Part shown: one piece after another, positions 17,836 to 26,509 of the stretch
Layout of the letters: every line of letters begins with the position of its first letter
Position numbering within the stretch: the stretch's first letter is position 1
Source: an uncultured Erysipelotrichaceae bacterium
GTDB lineage: Bacteria > Bacillota_I > Bacilli_A > RF39 > UBA660
Length of the DNA: 61,210 bases
Assembly: GCA_902789425.1 (NCBI GenBank)
Contig: CADANX010000009.1
Coordinates: forward strand, 1 to 61,210
Direction of reading: 5' to 3'
Notes under the pieces: generated by a model
Databases searched by the model: none
What the model was told of the DNA's origin: nothing
Seen by the model: only the letters and a program-made list of their open reading frames with translations
Position numbers and translations under genes: made by a program

Positions 17836-18942
17836 TTATTTATTTAAGTAATGTAATATTTTTACAGTATTCTTTGGATGACGTAATTTATTAAGAGCTC
17901 TTGCTTCTAATTGTCTTACTCTTTCTCTTGTAATACCAAATATTTTACCTACTTCCTCTAAAGTTCTTTTCTTTCCATCCTTTATTCCATATCTAAGTAT
18001 AATTACTTCTCTTTCTCTTTTAGTTAGCATATTAAGTACATCATTAACACTATCTGACAATTCTTCTTTAAACACTTTATCTAAAGCAACATCTTCAACA
18101 TCAATATTATCTGAAATAAATTCATCTAAAGTTGTATCATCATCACCTACTGTTTGATTGATTGAAACAGGTTCATTATATAATAAAAGATCTTTCAATA
18201 TTTGAACTGAAAAGCCTGTCTTTTCTGATAAATACTCAAGACTAGGCATTTTTTCATATTCATTCTTATACTTCTCAATCTCATTTTTTACATTATCATA
18301 ACCTTGTGATACATATCTAGGTAATCTTATAATTCTTGCTTTATCTAAAATTGTATTATTTATAGCCGTTTTTATATAATAAACAGCGTAAGTTGAAAAT
18401 CTAGTACCTCTTGTATAGTCATATTTATCAATTGCTTTTAAAAGAGCAATATTTGCTTCTTGAATTAAATCTAATAATTCTATTCCTCTATCTCTTTTTT
18501 TATTTGCAAAATACAGCACTAATCTTAAATTAGACTTAAATATTATTTCTTTTATTTTTGGATCTTTAGTTCTATTATATTCTTTAAATAAATTGCATGT
18601 TTCTTCATAATCTAGCATTTTATATTTTTGAATTTCTCTAACAAATGCTTTTTTAGAATCCACTTCAAAATAATCATCATCTATTTCATCTTCTAATTTC
18701 TCATCATCAAATATAAAGTTAAATCCATTATTATCAAAATATATTAAAACTATTTTTAAAATATTATCATTTAAATTTAAATCTTCAAATTTACTTGCAT
18801 CTATATTTTTATCAGGAAAACAATTATCTAATAATTTTTTTAATTCATTGTCTTCATTTATTAATTTATTAATATCTTCTTTATTTTTATTAGATAAATC
18901 AATTTTTAGACTCTTCAATATTTTAATTTTCTCCATGTTCAT
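17836..18942 (-). CDS. Alternative sigma-70 family RNA polymerase sigma factor
   Basis: The protein has about 368 residues. ATG 18942 is favoured (GGTGAT upstream); other ATGs lie at 18963 and 18936. The acidic N-terminal ~90 residues match nothing. A region 1.2-like segment (KKAFVREIQKYKMLDYEE) precedes region 2 with SNLRLVLYFANKKRDRGIELLDLIQEANIALLKA, split by family-typical spacing. Region 2.3/2.4 is divergent: the housekeeping aromatic pair of YATWWIRQ is YAVYYIKT, and the -10-reading stretch ends ARIIRLPRYV. Region 3 and a near-canonical region 4.2 (TLEEVGKIFGITRERVRQLE) follow. It should recognise a TTGACA-like -35 and an altered -10. The gene overlaps the 11-repeat array gene upstream by about 20 bases. 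Confidence 0.88.
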   Translation of the reverse strand: MNMEKIKILKSLKIDLSNKNKEDINKLINEDNELKKLLDNCFPDKNIDASKFEDLNLNDNILKIVLIYFDNNGFNFIFDDEKLEDEIDDDYFEVDSKKAFVREIQKYKMLDYEETCNLFKEYNRTKDPKIKEIIFKSNLRLVLYFANKKRDRGIELLDLIQEANIALLKAIDKYDYTRGTRFSTYAVYYIKTAINNTILDKARIIRLPRYVSQGYDNVKNEIEKYKNEYEKMPSLEYLSEKTGFSVQILKDLLLYNEPVSINQTVGDDDTTLDEFISDNIDVEDVALDKVFKEELSDSVNDVLNMLTKREREVIILRYGIKDGKKRTLEEVGKIFGITRERVRQLEARALNKLRHPKNTVKILHYLNK

Positions 18943-20923
18943 CTTTATCACCATCTTTTGCATAATATACGTCTCTTTTTAATAATAATTGTTTTTTTAA
19001 AGTGATTGGCTTATACTCTTTATCACTTTTTCTTTTTTCTATAAGCCAATCAGGTTCTATACCTAGTATATTTTCTTCAAGATATGTACTATTCCAAACA
19101 TCTTGATTATTATAAAGAAAATCCATTAAATCTTTTTGTTCTACATAACTAAATTCTTTAAAATTAGATATCTTTTTAATTTTAACATTTAAACCTAGCA
19201 AAATCCAGTCATTAAGTTTAATTCGGGAAATACTAAATATTCTGCATATATCACCTAATGATATTCCATTAATAAAATTATCATTAAAAGAACCTAGATT
19301 CAATAAAAAAACTCTATTTCTTATACTAGATACACTTCTATTTAATCTATTTGCTATATATTCTACTGAATAATTTCCCCAAAGATCTGAAAGTAATTCT
19401 TCCTCCTCTTTTGTCCAAATCCTTCTTTTTTCTTCTTTCTTTTCTTCCTTTTTAGGTGTACCTTTCTTAATCTTTAATCTATTTGCTTTATTTATAATAG
19501 ATGATTCTGTTTTATTTAATTCTAGTGCTATATCGCTAGTACTAATCTTATTATAATTATCAATTAAGTAATTTATTTCTTCAGGTGTCCAGTATACTTT
19601 ATTAATAACTTGTTTTATGTTTAAAGTACTTAGCATGTATTCAATAGAGCTAGTAGATCTACCTAATTCTTTAGCTATTTCATTTATTGTCATTGTTTTT
19701 GACAGAATTTCTAGTTTTTCTTTTTCTTCTTCTGTCCAATTCTTTCTTGAATTATAATTTGGAGTAATACTTAATTCTTTTAATTTTGTAACTATTGTAT
19801 TTGTCGCTAAATTAAATTTTTCAGCTATTTCTTCAGGAGTATAATCTTTATTATATTCTATTAACATATTTATTTTTTCTTCAGTCCAGAATTCTTTTTT
19901 TAAGGATATATTATATTTAGATGCCATTCTTCTTATACTATCTTCAGATCTATTTAATATTTTTGATGTTTCAGACAAATTATGAACTAAAAGTAGTTCT
20001 TTTAATCTTATTATTTCTTCTTCTGTCCATCTTTTATTTTTAGTAGGAAATACATTTAATCTTTTTAAATAATTATTAATACTTATTTCAGGAATAGATG
20101 TTTTTTTTGAAATCTCAATAATATCTTTTCCTTCACTATAGAGTTTTAATACTTCTTCCTTTTGCTCTATTGTCCACATAAATTTTTTTGTAACGGCTTT
20201 TATCTTATATTTTGATAGCAAACATGATATTTGATTAGTGGATGTCTTGTATTTTTTAGCTAGCTGTTCCTTAGTCATTGTTTTAGCATCTTCTCTAATT
20301 TTATTAATAATTTCATCTGTCCACTTCCTATTTTGTTGTAAAGTTGGTAAATTTAGTTCTTTTTTATATCTTTGTATAACTGAATAAGATGTGTTTAATT
20401 CTTTTGCTATTTCACTTATTGTTAATTTGCCCCAATTATCTTTAATAAACTCTTTTTCTTTTTTTGAAAAAGTAGTATATTCACTAATATGTTTAATTCT
20501 TAAATCATGTATTTTATAACTAATTGCCCCGATTGATCTATTAGGTAAATATTTAACAAGCTCAGTATAATGACATTTTGGAGCATACTTTTTCAATATT
20601 CTAATTTCATCATCAGTCCAATCAGTAGCATATAAAGAAGGAACAATATTTAATTCTTTTAATTTTTTATTTATTTGATATGGAGTAATTTCAATAAATT
20701 TACTAATTTCATTAATTGATTTTTTATTAACATTATCCTTTAAATAATCTTCCTTCCATTTAACCCATATATCTTTTTTGCCATGAAGTTCTATTCCAAG
20801 TTTAAGTGCTTTTTTTTGAATAGCAACAACACTTTTATTCATTTTTTTGGCAATTGTTTTAGTAATATATTTTTTAGAGTATTCTCTAAGTAAATTTTCT
20901 TCTTCAGGAGTCCATCTAGTCAT
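18923..20923 (-). CDS. Protein of eleven tandem Myb/SANT-like HTH repeats
   Basis: The protein has 666 residues. ATG 20923 follows AAAGGA and lies 4 bases after the stop of its paralogue. Eleven repeats of ~47-55 residues follow one another. Most start W-T-x-E-E and continue with an IA-KxLxRSxxSI-type turn and second helix, e.g. RWTPEEENLLREYSKK (1), RWTEEEIIRLKELL (7), NWTEEEKEKLEIL (9), IWTKEEEELLSDLWG (11). Repeats 2 and 4 lack the initial WT (VKWKED, FSKKEK). After repeat 11 comes a ~100-residue domain (ISLGDICRIFSISRI ... YVEQKDLMDFL ... ENILGIEPDWLIEKRK) also present in the paralogue, then a charged tail that overlaps the sigma gene. It is probably a sequence-reading DNA-binding array. 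The function is unknown. Confidence 0.8.
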   Translation of the reverse strand: MTRWTPEEENLLREYSKKYITKTIAKKMNKSVVAIQKKALKLGIELHGKKDIWVKWKEDYLKDNVNKKSINEISKFIEITPYQINKKLKELNIVPSLYATDWTDDEIRILKKYAPKCHYTELVKYLPNRSIGAISYKIHDLRIKHISEYTTFSKKEKEFIKDNWGKLTISEIAKELNTSYSVIQRYKKELNLPTLQQNRKWTDEIINKIREDAKTMTKEQLAKKYKTSTNQISCLLSKYKIKAVTKKFMWTIEQKEEVLKLYSEGKDIIEISKKTSIPEISINNYLKRLNVFPTKNKRWTEEEIIRLKELLLVHNLSETSKILNRSEDSIRRMASKYNISLKKEFWTEEKINMLIEYNKDYTPEEIAEKFNLATNTIVTKLKELSITPNYNSRKNWTEEEKEKLEILSKTMTINEIAKELGRSTSSIEYMLSTLNIKQVINKVYWTPEEINYLIDNYNKISTSDIALELNKTESSIINKANRLKIKKGTPKKEEKKEEKRRIWTKEEEELLSDLWGNYSVEYIANRLNRSVSSIRNRVFLLNLGSFNDNFINGISLGDICRIFSISRIKLNDWILLGLNVKIKKISNFKEFSYVEQKDLMDFLYNNQDVWNSTYLEENILGIEPDWLIEKRKSDKEYKPITLKKQLLLKRDVYYAKDGDKDEHGEN

Positions 20924-20927
20924 TTTT

Positions 20928-22448
20928 TCAATCCTTTCTAAGTGAAAGAACTTTTGTTTTCTTTCGATTTTTATAAAAATCATCAGTTAATGTGCTATCT
21001 CTTTTTCTTTTTTCAACTAGCCAATCTGGTTCTAATCCAAAAATATTTTCTTCAAGAAGTCTACTATCAAATAAATTTTGATTATTTTCAAGAAAAGTCA
21101 TTAGATCATCTATTTTTACATAATTATAACTTTTATTATTAGTAATATTTCTTTCTTTAACTTTCAAACCAAGTGATACCCATAAAATAGAAATATCATG
21201 TATACTAATATTAAATATTCTTGATAGATCTGTAAGTAGTATTCCATCAAAAAAGTAATCAACAATGTTACCCAGTCCTAGTTGATATGCTTTATTATTA
21301 ATAGAACTAGCACTTCTTTTTAATTTGGTTGCTATTTGATTTATTGATTTTTTTCCCCATAAATCACAAAGTAAATCTTCTTCTTCCTTTGTCCAAAACT
21401 TTTTATTGCCAAAAGAATGATCTATTTTTTCTCTTTGAATTCTTAAAATTACTGCAGTTTGTTCTCTATTTAACATTTTAGCTATCTCTTCAATCGATTT
21501 ATCTTCACTAACATATTTTTTTAATAGTTCTATTTCATCTTTTGTCCATCTTCTTAAATTAGTAACATTTAAATTAAGTTCTTTAGCTCTATTTTTTATA
21601 GATACAGTTGATCTATTTAATTCAATAACTATATCACTTAAACTTTTATTCTTTGAAAGATTAATTAGTTTTTCATCATCTTCTGGTGTCCAAGGAATCT
21701 CTTCATCTAAAATAATATTAAATCCATATTTTTTTAGATAAGAAATTATCATAGTGTCTGTTTTTTCCATTTTTTTTGATATTTGAAGAACAGTCATATT
21801 TTTACTTGATAAATCTTTTAACATTATCTCATCTTCTTTTGTCCATGTTCTTTTATCTTTTCTTATACTTATATTTTCAAGATCAGCTTTCCTACAAATA
21901 CTTTGTTCTGTTTTACCAAGAATAATTGAAAGTTCCTTAGATGTTTTTTGGGGGCCATTTTTTCTTAAAAATTCTACTTCCTCTTCTGTCCATTTTACTT
22001 TTCCATCTAGAAGTTTAATATTATATTTATGAGCAGTTGAACTAATACCTGCCTTTGTAGTTTTATATTTTATTGCAAGATCATCTAAAGTCATTGTCTT
22101 AGCATCAATTCTTAATTCTTCTAATCTTTCTTCTGTCCATTTTAATTGTACTTTTTTCGGAGGAAGACCAAGATCACTAGCTATTTTTTTAATTGCTAAT
22201 CTATTTACATTTATATTTCTTGCAATATCAGAAATACTCATCTTATTCCAATTATCTTTAACATATTTTATTTCATCGTCTGTAATATTCTCTTCTTTAG
22301 TACTAATTAATCCCTTACTTCTTAATCTAATTATTTTTGTTTTAATTGCACCTGGTGTTTTATCAAAAAAAAGAGAAAGATCCTTAATCTTATATATTTC
22401 ATATAATTTAATTAATTTTTCTTCCTCTTCTTTTGTCCATCTATCCAT
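20928..22448 (-). CDS. Protein of eight tandem Myb/SANT-like HTH repeats
   Basis: The protein has 506 residues and starts at ATG 22448 behind AGGAGG. Repeats begin RWTKEEEEKLIKLY (1), ITDDEIKYVKDNW (2, lacking Trp), then WTEERLEELR, WTEEEVEFLR, WTKEDEIMLK, WTPEDDEKLI, WTKDEIELLK and WTKEEEDLLCDLWG (8). Each unit is three-helix sized (~47-52 residues) with a turn such as IAKMLNRE or IATKLKRS. The C-terminal ~100 residues (LTDLSRIFNISIHDI ... IDDLMTFLENNQ ... GLEPDWLVEKRKRD) match the end of the 11-repeat protein, so the two arose by duplication with repeat gain or loss. Gene spacing of 10 and 4 bases to the neighbours indicates one operon. Confidence 0.8.
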   Translation of the reverse strand: MDRWTKEEEEKLIKLYEIYKIKDLSLFFDKTPGAIKTKIIRLRSKGLISTKEENITDDEIKYVKDNWNKMSISDIARNINVNRLAIKKIASDLGLPPKKVQLKWTEERLEELRIDAKTMTLDDLAIKYKTTKAGISSTAHKYNIKLLDGKVKWTEEEVEFLRKNGPQKTSKELSIILGKTEQSICRKADLENISIRKDKRTWTKEDEIMLKDLSSKNMTVLQISKKMEKTDTMIISYLKKYGFNIILDEEIPWTPEDDEKLINLSKNKSLSDIVIELNRSTVSIKNRAKELNLNVTNLRRWTKDEIELLKKYVSEDKSIEEIAKMLNREQTAVILRIQREKIDHSFGNKKFWTKEEEDLLCDLWGKKSINQIATKLKRSASSINNKAYQLGLGNIVDYFFDGILLTDLSRIFNISIHDISILWVSLGLKVKERNITNNKSYNYVKIDDLMTFLENNQNLFDSRLLEENIFGLEPDWLVEKRKRDSTLTDDFYKNRKKTKVLSLRKD

Positions 22449-22458
22449 AGTAATCCTC

Positions 22459-23163
22459 CTAGTAATCAATCTTTTTTAATAGTTTTTCATATGTTAATGA
22501 ATAAGTAACTAAATCCCATTTATCAAGTATATTAAAATCACTTAATAATTCTTTTGTTATTTTTTCTCTTAAAAGGACATCTCTTACTTCTTTTAATAAA
22601 TATAATTCATCATCTTTAAATATCTTATATAAAAGCATAGCGTAATAATAAGATATTAAATATACATCATATTTATAATTTTCTTTATCTAACTCATCAT
22701 CTGTTAATCTATATTTATATTTTTTATTAAAAACATCTTTTCTTTCTTTTAAATCTTTTAATTCATTTAATCTTCTTATAACTATATTATGAGTAATATC
22801 TTTCGGTTGAGATTTTGTAAATATTAATTCACATAAATATGGAATCGTATAAATATAATCCTTACTTGATGTTATCTCATCTATACTTTGATTTTTTAAA
22901 TCAAATAATAAATCACTACCAATAGATGCAAACGTTGATTTATCGATAAAACCATATTTTGTTTTATAATCCCTATTATTTAATAATATATGTTTTAATT
23001 CTTCTTTAGTACATACACCAAATAAATCTTCAACTTTATTTAAAGCTTTATTCTTTTCTTTTATAAAAGTATCTTCTTTTAAGTGATGTAGTTCCTTTTT
23101 TTCATAACTATCTAATTTTAATCTAACTGTATCAAGTAATATTCTGTTTTCGTTAATATTCAT
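22459..23163 (-). CDS. Unknown helical protein of the Myb-array/sigma operon
   Basis: The protein has 234 residues. ATG 23163 has AGAGGA upstream. It is highly charged and predicted almost wholly alpha-helical, with no membrane segment, no zinc ligands and no recognised family. It ends 10 bases before the 8-repeat gene and starts 23 bases after the XRE gene, so it belongs to the same transcript. A role as cofactor or anti-sigma-like partner is conceivable, but the sequence does not show it. Confidence 0.7.
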   Translation of the reverse strand: MNINENRILLDTVRLKLDSYEKKELHHLKEDTFIKEKNKALNKVEDLFGVCTKEELKHILLNNRDYKTKYGFIDKSTFASIGSDLLFDLKNQSIDEITSSKDYIYTIPYLCELIFTKSQPKDITHNIVIRRLNELKDLKERKDVFNKKYKYRLTDDELDKENYKYDVYLISYYYAMLLYKIFKDDELYLLKEVRDVLLREKITKELLSDFNILDKWDLVTYSLTYEKLLKKIDY

Positions 23164-23186
23164 CTTGTTTTCCTCTTTCTGTTTTT

Positions 23187-23747
23187 TCAATAAATAAGTA
23201 TAGTTCTACCAAAATGAGCAGATAAATTAACACTTTTATATGATGGAACATATTTGTGATGACATTTTTGACATTCATAATAACCAGCAACTTGTTCTAT
23301 TTTTACTAGTACTAGTGCTGTTATAAAAAATGCAATTAATCCTGATGTAATAATAATTATTCTAGCTGTATTTGTCATATCTACATATGATGCTGTAAAT
23401 ATTAATATTAAAAATAATATTGATATAATGTATCCTATTATTGTTTCTAAGCTAAGTAATCTTTTATCTGATTCCTCTTTCATTCTAGTCATTTCAAGTA
23501 AGTTTTCTTCTAATTTCACTTCATTTTTTTTCATATCAACCACTTCACCAGAAAATAAATCATTAATGGTAATATTCAATATTTCACATAGTTTTGGCAT
23601 ATTACCTGCATCTGGTAAGCATACACCATTTTCCCATTTAGATATTGCTCTATCAGATATATATAGCATTTCAGCAAGTTCGCTTTGTGTTATATTTTTT
23701 TCCTTTCTTTTTTGACTTATAAATTTACCAATCTTGATTAAATCCAT
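23187..23747 (-). CDS. XRE-family regulator with two membrane segments and a cut-short zinc ribbon
   Basis: The protein has 186 residues and starts at ATG 23747 (AAGGAG). The N-terminal HTH (~6-60) is canonical: ISQKRKEKNITQSELAEMLY and DRAISKWENGVCLPD. Two hydrophobic segments follow (~105-128, 132-152), then YYECQKCHHKYVPSYKS and HFGRT. Relatives with this layout usually continue past GRT into a second Cys-pair that completes a zinc ribbon; here TGA follows after five residues (ILIY stop), leaving one CxxC. It is first gene of the Myb-array/sigma operon and presumably represses it. A 14-bp palindrome lies over its promoter region. Confidence 0.85.
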   Translation of the reverse strand: MDLIKIGKFISQKRKEKNITQSELAEMLYISDRAISKWENGVCLPDAGNMPKLCEILNITINDLFSGEVVDMKKNEVKLEENLLEMTRMKEESDKRLLSLETIIGYIISILFLILIFTASYVDMTNTARIIIITSGLIAFFITALVLVKIEQVAGYYECQKCHHKYVPSYKSVNLSAHFGRTILIY

Positions 23748-23783
23748 AGTGTTTCTCCTTTCATACAAATAATATACACCCTA

Positions 23784-23797
23784 TTATTTATAAATAA
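23784..23797. promoter_or_regulatory. Perfect 14-bp palindrome, likely operator of the XRE/Myb/sigma operon
   Basis: TTATTTATAAATAA is its own reverse complement and sits 37 bases upstream of the XRE start codon. It overlaps the expected -35/spacer zone of a minus-strand TATATT -10 at 23771-23776. A second small inverted repeat (AACC-TGT-GGTT) lies at 23802-23812. The location suggests autoregulation. AT palindromes also arise by chance here, so confidence is moderate. Confidence 0.4.
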
Positions 23798-24793: not shown

Positions 24794-25747
24794 TTATTGA
24801 ACTATATATACTGGTGTTCCAACATCTACCATATAGAATAACTCAGCAATTTTTGAATATGGCATATTTACGCAACCATGGCTACCATTATATCTATATA
24901 TTTGTCCACCAAATGTACTTCTCCAAGTTGCATCATGAATTCCATAATTACTACCTTTAAAAGCCATCCAGTAATAAACAAATGATGTATAATCTTTTCC
25001 TTTAAGTTCAGTATTTGTTGTTTTATATAGTACACTAAAACTACCTAATGGTGTACCATTATTAATTCCAGTTACTACAGGTGAAGAAAATACAACTTCA
25101 TTAAATTCATAATACTTTAATTCTTGATTAGAAATTGATACTTCAATATATGGATTTTTATCTTTTACATGAACTATTACTTTTTCTACTGTTTTATTAC
25201 CTGATGAATCTTCGACAGTATAAGAAACATCATAATCACCAACAACTGAAGTATTTACACTACTTCTTATATCAACTTTAGTAGATAAATCACCATCATA
25301 GTTATCATTAGCTGTTGCAAGAGATGGCATAAAATTGTCATTTACTTTTGCTATTACTTCTTTATCTCCATTAATAGTTATAACTGGTGGTGTTGTATCA
25401 ACTATATGTACTTTTCTTTGTATAGTTTTTCCAAGTTTAATATATTTCATATATAATGTATAACTTACTGTATAATTACCTACTTTTGATGTATTAACAT
25501 TAGAAATAACAGATACATTATTTCTATAATCAGTGTTATTGAAGACCGCAACAAAACCTGGCTCCTTATATTTTTCACCGACCTCAAGTGTGATATCAGT
25601 ATCACCTACTAAATAAAATTTAGGTCTAATATCATCAACAGAAAATCTAAAATATAATAAGAAACCAAGTGTAATTACTAAAACTAAAATTAATAATCTT
25701 ACCATTAATAATAACTTAACTTGTCTATTTTCCACTTCAACCACCAT
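24794..25747 (-). CDS. L,D-transpeptidase (YkuD) with two Ig-like domains
   Basis: The protein has up to 317 residues. The start is uncertain: ATG 25747 lacks a good ribosome site, and a GTG four codons later (25735) has GGTGG. It has one membrane anchor (~16-36), two DUF5011-like Ig domains (~55-115 EVGEKYKEPGF; ~118-195 DTTPPVITINGD), then a YkuD catalytic domain with SNYGIHDATW and the signature GSHGCVNMP carrying the catalytic Cys. It forms 3-3 peptidoglycan crosslinks or attaches proteins outside the membrane. The Ig domains resemble the one in the GH25 lipoprotein at 13 kb. Confidence 0.92.
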   Translation of the reverse strand: MVVEVENRQVKLLLMVRLLILVLVITLGFLLYFRFSVDDIRPKFYLVGDTDITLEVGEKYKEPGFVAVFNNTDYRNNVSVISNVNTSKVGNYTVSYTLYMKYIKLGKTIQRKVHIVDTTPPVITINGDKEVIAKVNDNFMPSLATANDNYDGDLSTKVDIRSSVNTSVVGDYDVSYTVEDSSGNKTVEKVIVHVKDKNPYIEVSISNQELKYYEFNEVVFSSPVVTGINNGTPLGSFSVLYKTTNTELKGKDYTSFVYYWMAFKGSNYGIHDATWRSTFGGQIYRYNGSHGCVNMPYSKIAELFYMVDVGTPVYIVQ

Positions 25748-25798
25748 TTGTTTTCTTTTTATATAATATCATATTTTTTTTAAATGTAAAAACATTTT

Positions 25799-26509
25799 TT
25801 AATTACTTATAAAACTTTTTCCAGTTTTGTAGTCTAAATGAACTTTATCTTGAACATTATAAATAAAAATATTAAATTTAATACCCTTACCTTTATCCTC
25901 TACAGAGTACCCCATCATATGAACACCTTTTGCAAGCATATTACCATTTTCAAATATAGGTGTTACTTTATATAGCACATGATTATTTGTTTTCTTTATA
26001 TAACTAGCAATCATATTTTCATATTCAAGCATAATTCCAGTATTCATTTGTCTTGTGCATGTTATTAAATTTTTTTTGTTTGCATTTTCACCTGTTAATT
26101 GATATCCAATTAAATGACATCTATTGTATAAAAATTTACCATCTATAAAATCATATTTAACAGTTTGCCAACCTGTTGGTTTTATCATACCAATACTTTC
26201 TCTTTTTTTAGTTGGCATTATTTTTTTTGAAACATTAGCATATGCATATGTACATCTACCTAGATAATCAAGTTCACCATATTCTTCAAAATCTCTATAC
26301 ATATCATTTTCAGCAAATTCTGGAACATTATTATTTATATAAATAAAATCACTAGATCCGTCATAATCTTTAACTTCATCTAGAGTAATATTTTCATTTA
26401 TAAAAACACTACCTAAAATATAATTATATATATCATCTTTATAATTATTATAAATATAAATAACTGAAGATATTAATATTATTAATAAAATATTCTTTAC
26501 TTTTTTCAT
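25799..26509 (-). CDS. Membrane-anchored DNA/RNA non-specific endonuclease (EndA/DNA-entry nuclease family)
   Basis: The protein has 236 residues with an N-terminal membrane segment (~5-22). The beta-beta-alpha-metal nuclease core holds YNRCHLIGYQLTGE (catalytic His, where the family has D-R-G-H) and the metal Asn in NKKNLITCTRQMN. An upstream RESIGMIKPTGWQ matches the EndA/DNA-entry family. Such enzymes degrade extracellular nucleic acid, sometimes during DNA uptake. The NRCH variant keeps Arg and His. AGGTGA precedes ATG 26509. It is probably separate from the downstream transpeptidase, 50 bases away. Confidence 0.87.
   Translation of the reverse strand: MKKVKNILLIILISSVIYIYNNYKDDIYNYILGSVFINENITLDEVKDYDGSSDFIYINNNVPEFAENDMYRDFEEYGELDYLGRCTYAYANVSKKIMPTKKRESIGMIKPTGWQTVKYDFIDGKFLYNRCHLIGYQLTGENANKKNLITCTRQMNTGIMLEYENMIASYIKKTNNHVLYKVTPIFENGNMLAKGVHMMGYSVEDKGKGIKFNIFIYNVQDKVHLDYKTGKSFISN

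Follow-up and report, generated by a model that had tools for sequence, protein, structure and literature searches.

The sigma70 cofactor GcrA binds sigma domain 2 together with methylated DNA and recruits RNA polymerase (PMC7403470), and Cbp1-like proteins lay chained helix-turn-helix (HTH) domains along a DNA repeat as chromatin-like factors (PMC10883916). In eukaryotes, several Myb repeats of SNAPc SNAP190 and of tandem Myb proteins read a promoter element within an initiation complex, and the TALE proteins provide the idea of a modular chain that reads a long DNA address. Here we describe a locus in a 61,210-nucleotide stretch of an uncultured Erysipelotrichaceae bacterium (contig CADANX010000009.1 of assembly GCA_902789425.1, positions 1 to 61,210 of the forward strand; hereafter the window), in which two giant arrays of tandem HTH units, A1 and A2, adjoin a gene for a divergent sigma-70 factor. 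Orthologous arrays and a sigma factor recur together as a cassette in related genomes, and we give an even chance to the reading that the arrays are long-address DNA readers recruiting a dedicated sigma holoenzyme.

The minus strand of the window holds, between positions 17836 and 23768, five co-directional open reading frames (ORFs) whose ends overlap or nearly touch (ORF map). The first-pass annotation had listed five packed minus-strand ORFs at this place, with two tandem-HTH proteins of 8 and 11 units and a divergent sigma factor next to them, and was accurate on these points. An iterated hidden Markov model (HMM) of the unit found exactly 11 canonical units in A1 (18923..20983, minus strand, 686 aa; units at 19295..20914, aa 24-65 to 523-563) and exactly 8 in A2 (20928..22469, minus strand, 513 aa; units at 21273..22439, aa 11-49 to 359-399), with one degenerate HTH after each set. 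The unit is a trihelical domain of about 49 residues with the HMM consensus WTEEEIKYLKELWGKKSISEIAKKLNRSESAISNKAKKLGLK. The degenerate HTH sits inside a conserved C-terminal module, which in the module alignment runs from a unit through a helix-turn-helix, a hairpin and a helix to NQNxWDSRxLExNxLGIEPEWLxEKRKRD; in A1 this module (19022..19279, minus strand) is a winged HTH, modelled as HTH, hairpin and helix, followed by the tail EPDWLIEKRKSD. The sigma gene (17836..18963, minus strand, 375 aa) encodes a divergent RpoD-type factor with regions 2, 3 and 4 (Pfam Sigma70_r2 3e-15, r4 4e-19 and r3 2e-5, the last sub-threshold). Its overlap with the larger array, also annotated at first pass, stands, whereas the five-gene operon proposed there is not a conserved unit, only the arrays and the sigma being conserved.

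Structure models and sequence profiles alike place the unit nearest to the GcrA DNA-binding domain. The models of A1 (mean pLDDT 68.9) and of gamma, a shorter array from related genomes (mean pLDDT 78.5), both consist of trihelical units followed by a winged HTH, and the placement of one unit relative to another is untrustworthy in them (pTM 0.24 and 0.44, respectively). The top structural matches of gamma were GcrA DNA-binding domains (5yiu with Z 8.2; 5yiv with Z 8.1 and an rmsd of 1.0 over 44 residues), GcrA in 7ye1 chain G giving Z 7.1 with 39% identity, and after GcrA came tandem Myb domains, Tc3, SNAPc and the CRISPR-repeat-binding 2lvs. A Z near 8 is weak for a small helical domain if taken alone; the GcrA-like assignment stands nevertheless because the sequence profiles agree, PF07750 matching A1 and A2 at 34.1 and 28.0 bits (cut-off 26.9 bits) and the profile matches to Myb, SNAPc and 2lvs concurring with the structural search. 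The repeats, read as HTHs at first pass, are modelled as trihelical domains nearest to a known DNA-binding domain.

The arrays nevertheless differ from each of the described systems. GcrA has one HTH and a sigma-interaction domain, whereas the arrays have 8-13 HTHs and a dedicated sigma in their operon. Cbp1 and Cbp2 share with the arrays a chain of duplicated HTHs, with similarity in both profile and structure, but they are archaeal, CRISPR-linked proteins of 2-3 HTHs, and the NCBIfam Cbp1 model gave 51.1 and 20.6 bits where its cut-off is 140. SNAP190 and the tandem Myb proteins, likewise matched by profile and structure, are eukaryotic, have 2-4.5 repeats and serve another polymerase. The first-pass suggestion of a TALE-like logic could not be upheld: the array units are of another fold, old and diverged (about 27% mutual identity), and have no two-residue code, their differences within and between units being spread over many columns in place of near-identical repeats of the TALE type.

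Three orthologous array families, alpha, beta and gamma, were recognized on the gene maps. Alpha comprises 11 units in about 690 aa, beta 13 units in about 785 aa, and gamma five units in about 350 aa, three ahead of the module and two behind it. A2 is a shortened alpha, sharing 38-39% identity with the alpha orthologues, and A1 a shortened beta, at 39-43% to its beta orthologues over the full length; the window has no gamma. The common gene order is alpha-beta-gamma-sigma (G031, G278, L103 and G041, the last with gamma first), and the window operon is a local copy of this cassette. Reduced forms are alpha-beta-sigma (the window and G219), beta-gamma-sigma (G207 and G311), alpha-gamma-sigma (G395), alpha-sigma (L104, L108 and, with a broken gamma, L107), gamma-sigma (G043, a second copy in G207, L113, L114, L115, L118, L119 and L120) and an insert-split beta followed by the sigma (L124).

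Directly downstream, within about 160 bp, a sigma gene follows at 20 intact loci and at one that is broken, which are spread over 20 genomes of a single Bacilli family. These loci include 12 of the 13 intact loci whose array has at least 8 units, the exception being G321, together with eight gamma-only loci and the broken one. The coupling of array and sigma proposed at first pass is therefore conserved, and the giant-array homologues do not commonly lie far from sigma genes. The module was matched in full in 16 of 386 same-family genomes, and in 84,980 species representatives (GTDB 220) a pattern scan returned 26 loci, nearly all in metagenome-assembled genomes titled Bacilli or Tenericutes, with goat caecum named in some of the records. 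Matches were confined to this Bacilli family both in a sample of the phylum (392 genomes) and in a sample of the order (288 genomes).

The units of an array are individually conserved by position. Between orthologues, the best match of a unit was the unit of the same index in 672 of 672 comparisons for alpha, 560 of 588 for beta and 936 of 936 for gamma, with identities of 66-77% for same-index and 24-28% for different-index units. Columns conserved within but not between units include 27, 29, 31 and 33, where helix 3 begins, together with some of helix 1 and of the first turn; helix 3 carries a positive charge (+1.8) and helix 1 a negative one (-1.5), the isoelectric point of the array proteins being 9.2-9.6. 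The dN/dS of the arrays, 0.10-0.20, indicates purifying selection. These features suit a recognition surface that is composite, fixed and held by purifying selection, and not a fast-changing code.

The sigma factor of the window scored 222.7 bits, below the RpoD equivalog cut-off of 354, and a separate RpoD gene adjoins a primase-like gene on contig C2 of the window's genome. At most loci the sigma is smaller (about 218 aa), with sigma-70 regions 2 and 4 and without region 3, and forms a clade with 100/100 support. The sigmas of the window and of G041 are RpoD-type and, in 60 relatives searched for each, had no orthologue nearer than RpoD, with identity reaching 44% and 51%; that of L115 is of a further type; the slot thus holds different sigma classes across loci. 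A single clade of all array-linked sigmas was rejected only weakly (p-AU 0.039), and a clade joining the window and G041 sigmas was not rejected (p-AU 0.129). The C-terminal motif RHP[K/R]NT is present in the window sigma (RHPKNT, 17866..17883, minus strand), in G041 and in all 17 small array-linked sigmas, and among 56 sigma tails inspected in relatives RHPxNT occurred in two, namely the window and G041 genes, the other 54 being almost all RHPSRS or RHPSRA. With sigma residues assigned to DNA or activator contact from general knowledge of sigma structure, the recognition helix of region 4.2 departs from RpoD in the small sigmas, and the aromatic pair of region 2.3/2.4 is YY in place of WW in the window sigma. 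That a remnant of the small sigma persists downstream of the RpoD-type gene of G041 or of the window was considered and rejected, short BLASTN matches being found there and no homologous frame.

The window's genome (1.03 Mb, 91% complete) has ten genes with a sigma70 region 2, which from their neighbours and sequence are read as including RpoD and SigE-, SigG-, SigF- and SigK-like genes. Apparent sporulation sigmas (a SigE/SigG pair, a SigF-like and a SigK-like gene) lie on contigs C2, C7, C10 and C11 of this same genome (G000, L022-L029), which has two further RpoD-like sigmas, one of them of 630 aa with a long C-terminal extension. Sigma-like matches were also seen in very long frames of 1211, 952 and 727 aa (G018:C6:2092-3069, G023:C1:66071-66985 and G030:C9:52531-53556), which are perhaps sigma fusions.

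Each of alpha, beta and gamma has been lost independently and the sigma kept. The last 31 residues of gamma are its sole remnant ahead of the sigma at L104, an alpha stub of about 60 residues precedes beta at L106, gamma is broken at L107, and beta is interrupted by about 1.1 kb at L124. Among the 386 genomes, the dedicated sigma without arrays was found in only two, G424 (degenerate) and G353 (broken); the sigmas of G301 and G038 are more distant and separate from it. The cassette is patchy between the genomes of these small-genome Bacilli and its chromosomal surroundings are unrelated, with no flanking gene recurring at a fixed position and no partner or effector gene beyond arrays and sigma recurring in a fixed place at the loci compared. 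From these patterns we read the cassette as having moved between genomes, shed arrays singly and held on to its sigma. A tRNA-Gln integration site was rejected, no tRNA adjoining the cassette at ten other loci, and so was carriage by phages or plasmids: viral contigs contained no relative of the sigma or of gamma at the sensitivity used, no relatives of A1 were found in phage records, and the plasmid matches were to short-array relatives. The insert that splits beta at L124 (255-1348) contains an ORF of 172 aa.

These observations establish a cassette of orthologous arrays and sigma in which the sigma is retained, its slot is open to replacement, its tail bears a signature and the array units are constrained. 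That the arrays serve as long-address DNA readers which recruit a dedicated sigma holoenzyme we regard as evenly balanced between right and wrong. It is favoured because a sigma stands downstream at most giant-array loci, against some ten sigma genes in a whole genome of 1.03 Mb; because arrays are deleted singly, in unrelated flanks, and the sigma is kept; because different sigma classes in one slot nearly all bear RHP[K/R]NT, absent from the 54 others; because of the same-index unit matches, the low dN/dS and the positive helix 3; and because GcrA, the nearest fold, is itself a sigma-binding activator (PMC7403470). Each array would then lie along a long stretch of DNA with its positively charged third helices facing it, every unit adding a fixed small part of one composite address. 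The winged HTH with the EPEWLxEKRxRD tail, or the units themselves, may touch the dedicated sigma, whose region 4 and RHP[K/R]NT tail are the probable contact surface, and this contact would recruit or stabilise the RNA polymerase of the cassette sigma at promoters beside the address. A single sigma would thereby have a choice of readers, each of alpha, beta and gamma serving its own address, and by analogy the arrays could be seen as GcrA-like cofactors that have expanded and that serve, several together, one dedicated sigma.

A number of findings weigh against such recruitment. Sigma-less gamma arrays occur in G174, G248, G345, G350, G410 (twice) and G416, and a sigma-less 8-unit array in G321; because roughly one in two of the short gamma arrays lacks a partner sigma, the sigma is not obligatory for the array family (at L116 and L122, contig ends hide whether a sigma follows). 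The sigma-linked loci are not independent events, most of them descending from one cassette, and an adjacency check in three extra genomes added nothing independent, G783 and G845 being loci already counted and G784 having a broken gamma. The L115 sigma ends in RHPRIT, the sole array-linked exception to RHP[K/R]NT, and part of the common tail of G041 could be retained DNA rather than a contact. No separate sigma-interaction domain was recognized in the arrays, where the PF07750 matches cover the HTH part or two successive units. No DNA target emerged either: when aligned, the sequences upstream of alpha agree chiefly at an extended -10 (TGnTATAAT-like) and the ribosome-binding region, with no long conserved operator, and most direct repeats close to the window operon come from the repetitive coding sequence of the units. 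As for the broken gamma of G784 (L223, 5028-6474), it is split into several frames, has no sigma and is an apparent pseudogene.

The best-surviving alternative, although we hold it unlikely, is that the arrays, descended from phages or plasmids, mainly organise, replicate or segregate DNA by coating or marking a long site, and that the sigma does no more than transcribe the cassette or its surroundings. It stays alive through the main counter-evidence to recruitment, the occurrence of gamma without a sigma and the replication context of the phage relatives: on viral contigs, short-array proteins sit in replication clusters beside helicase, DnaC-like, clamp, ParB-like and methyltransferase genes, and a relative on a Priestia plasmid adjoins a replication gene. 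The chromatin-like action of the chained-HTH Cbp1-like proteins (PMC10883916) points the same way. A passenger sigma, however, would not need to be kept as arrays vanish and classes swap, nor to have a common tail, and the conserved promoter upstream of alpha resembles an ordinary extended -10 promoter.

The phage relatives belong to PHROG 323 ("transcriptional regulator, D5-like", the D5 link being that of the family name alone), which matched A1, A2 and gamma with E values of 6.8e-88, 5.3e-57 and 6.7e-42. They have in common with the arrays the unit, the winged HTH, the EPxWLxEKRxxD module and flanking units, and the architecture of gamma is identical. In the relatives that were examined the number of units is 1-5, the genes belong to replication regions of phages or plasmids, and no sigma adjoins them in the maps made, whereas alpha and beta have 11-13 units and are chromosomal and beside a sigma. 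Because the short relatives sit in phage and plasmid replication settings, the array ancestor was probably a mobile-element protein; growth to 11-13 units and coupling to a sigma were seen only in this Bacilli family, within the searches made. One short-array protein, on Priestia megaterium plasmid pNCT2_1 (L211 4989-5882, WP_129542384.1), is annotated as a sigma-70 factor and has a sequence of HTH units and a winged HTH; this label on the Priestia short-array proteins is probably a misannotation from region-4-like HTHs. A 233-aa protein of the window's genus (G011, L033 2969-3670) combines two units with an apparent HNH-type endonuclease, on a phage-like contig beside DNA-methyltransferase-like genes.

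We consider improbable a defence or takeover switch, in which the arrays would recognise mobile-element DNA and the sigma trigger a response, or in which an element would redirect host transcription, for example sporulation. The patchy distribution in unrelated surroundings speaks for it, as does the small sigma without region 3, a trait shared with the SigE/SigK-like genes of the window's genome, and sigma genes are part of one defence system (MZA) and are also carried by dormancy-altering phages (PMC9429907). The match to MzaA, the MZA sigma, is however limited to the sigma part (208.6 bits against a cut-off of 800, only over the last third of the profile), the remaining PADLOC matches of the cassette proteins are generic HTHs, viral contigs gave neither gamma nor sigma at the sensitivity used, effector genes do not recur nearby, and the recognition units are conserved, not diversifying. 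Adjacency of array and sigma genes through inheritance only, with no functional link, is very improbable, since some arrays without a sigma and the single ancestry of many loci are outweighed by the different sigma classes in one slot, the sigma always kept as arrays are lost, the common tail, and the near-absence of the dedicated sigma without arrays (only G424 and G353 among 386 genomes).

Going beyond recruitment of a dedicated sigma by the arrays, the cassette might represent a new class of transcription initiation, with a transferable sigma directed to its promoters by giant HTH arrays that can be exchanged for one another, alpha, beta and gamma being plug-in readers that dock on a conserved sigma tail and each read one composite address of tens of bp to perhaps 100; this we find rather doubtful. 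The units, the module and the sigma are each from known families. Giant arrays with strict positional orthology and a sigma pairing are undescribed as far as the open-access literature shows, in which a search found nothing relevant on tandem Myb/GcrA-like arrays with a sigma. If the recruitment reading is true, bacteria use very long modular DNA readers and pair a sigma with interchangeable address proteins, beyond the -35 and -10 hexamers alone, phage HTH proteins have expanded into host regulators, and the cassette offers a natural sigma-based, long-address transcription tool. A sharp, testable signature of it is that array-linked sigmas bear the RHP[K/R]NT tail across different classes.

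Some gene calls in the window operon deserve comment. The true start of A1 is probably internal, at MTRWTPEEE near 20923, and that of A2 at MDRWTKEEE near 22448, so that the overlap between the two array genes is probably not real; residues 1-22 are the lowest-confidence stretch of the A1 structure model. The two remaining genes of the operon are outside the conserved core: a helical protein of 243 aa (22459..23190, minus strand), without family match and near-private (two weak matches in 145 genomes), and an XRE-type repressor with a membrane segment (23187..23768, minus strand; Pfam HTH_19/HTH_3), neither gene having the same placement at any other array locus compared. Around the cassette loci are ordinary chromosomal genes such as pheST and der, and upstream of the window operon (24794-26509) an L,D-transpeptidase with Ig-like repeats (24794-25747) lies beside a DNA/RNA non-specific endonuclease (25799-26509).

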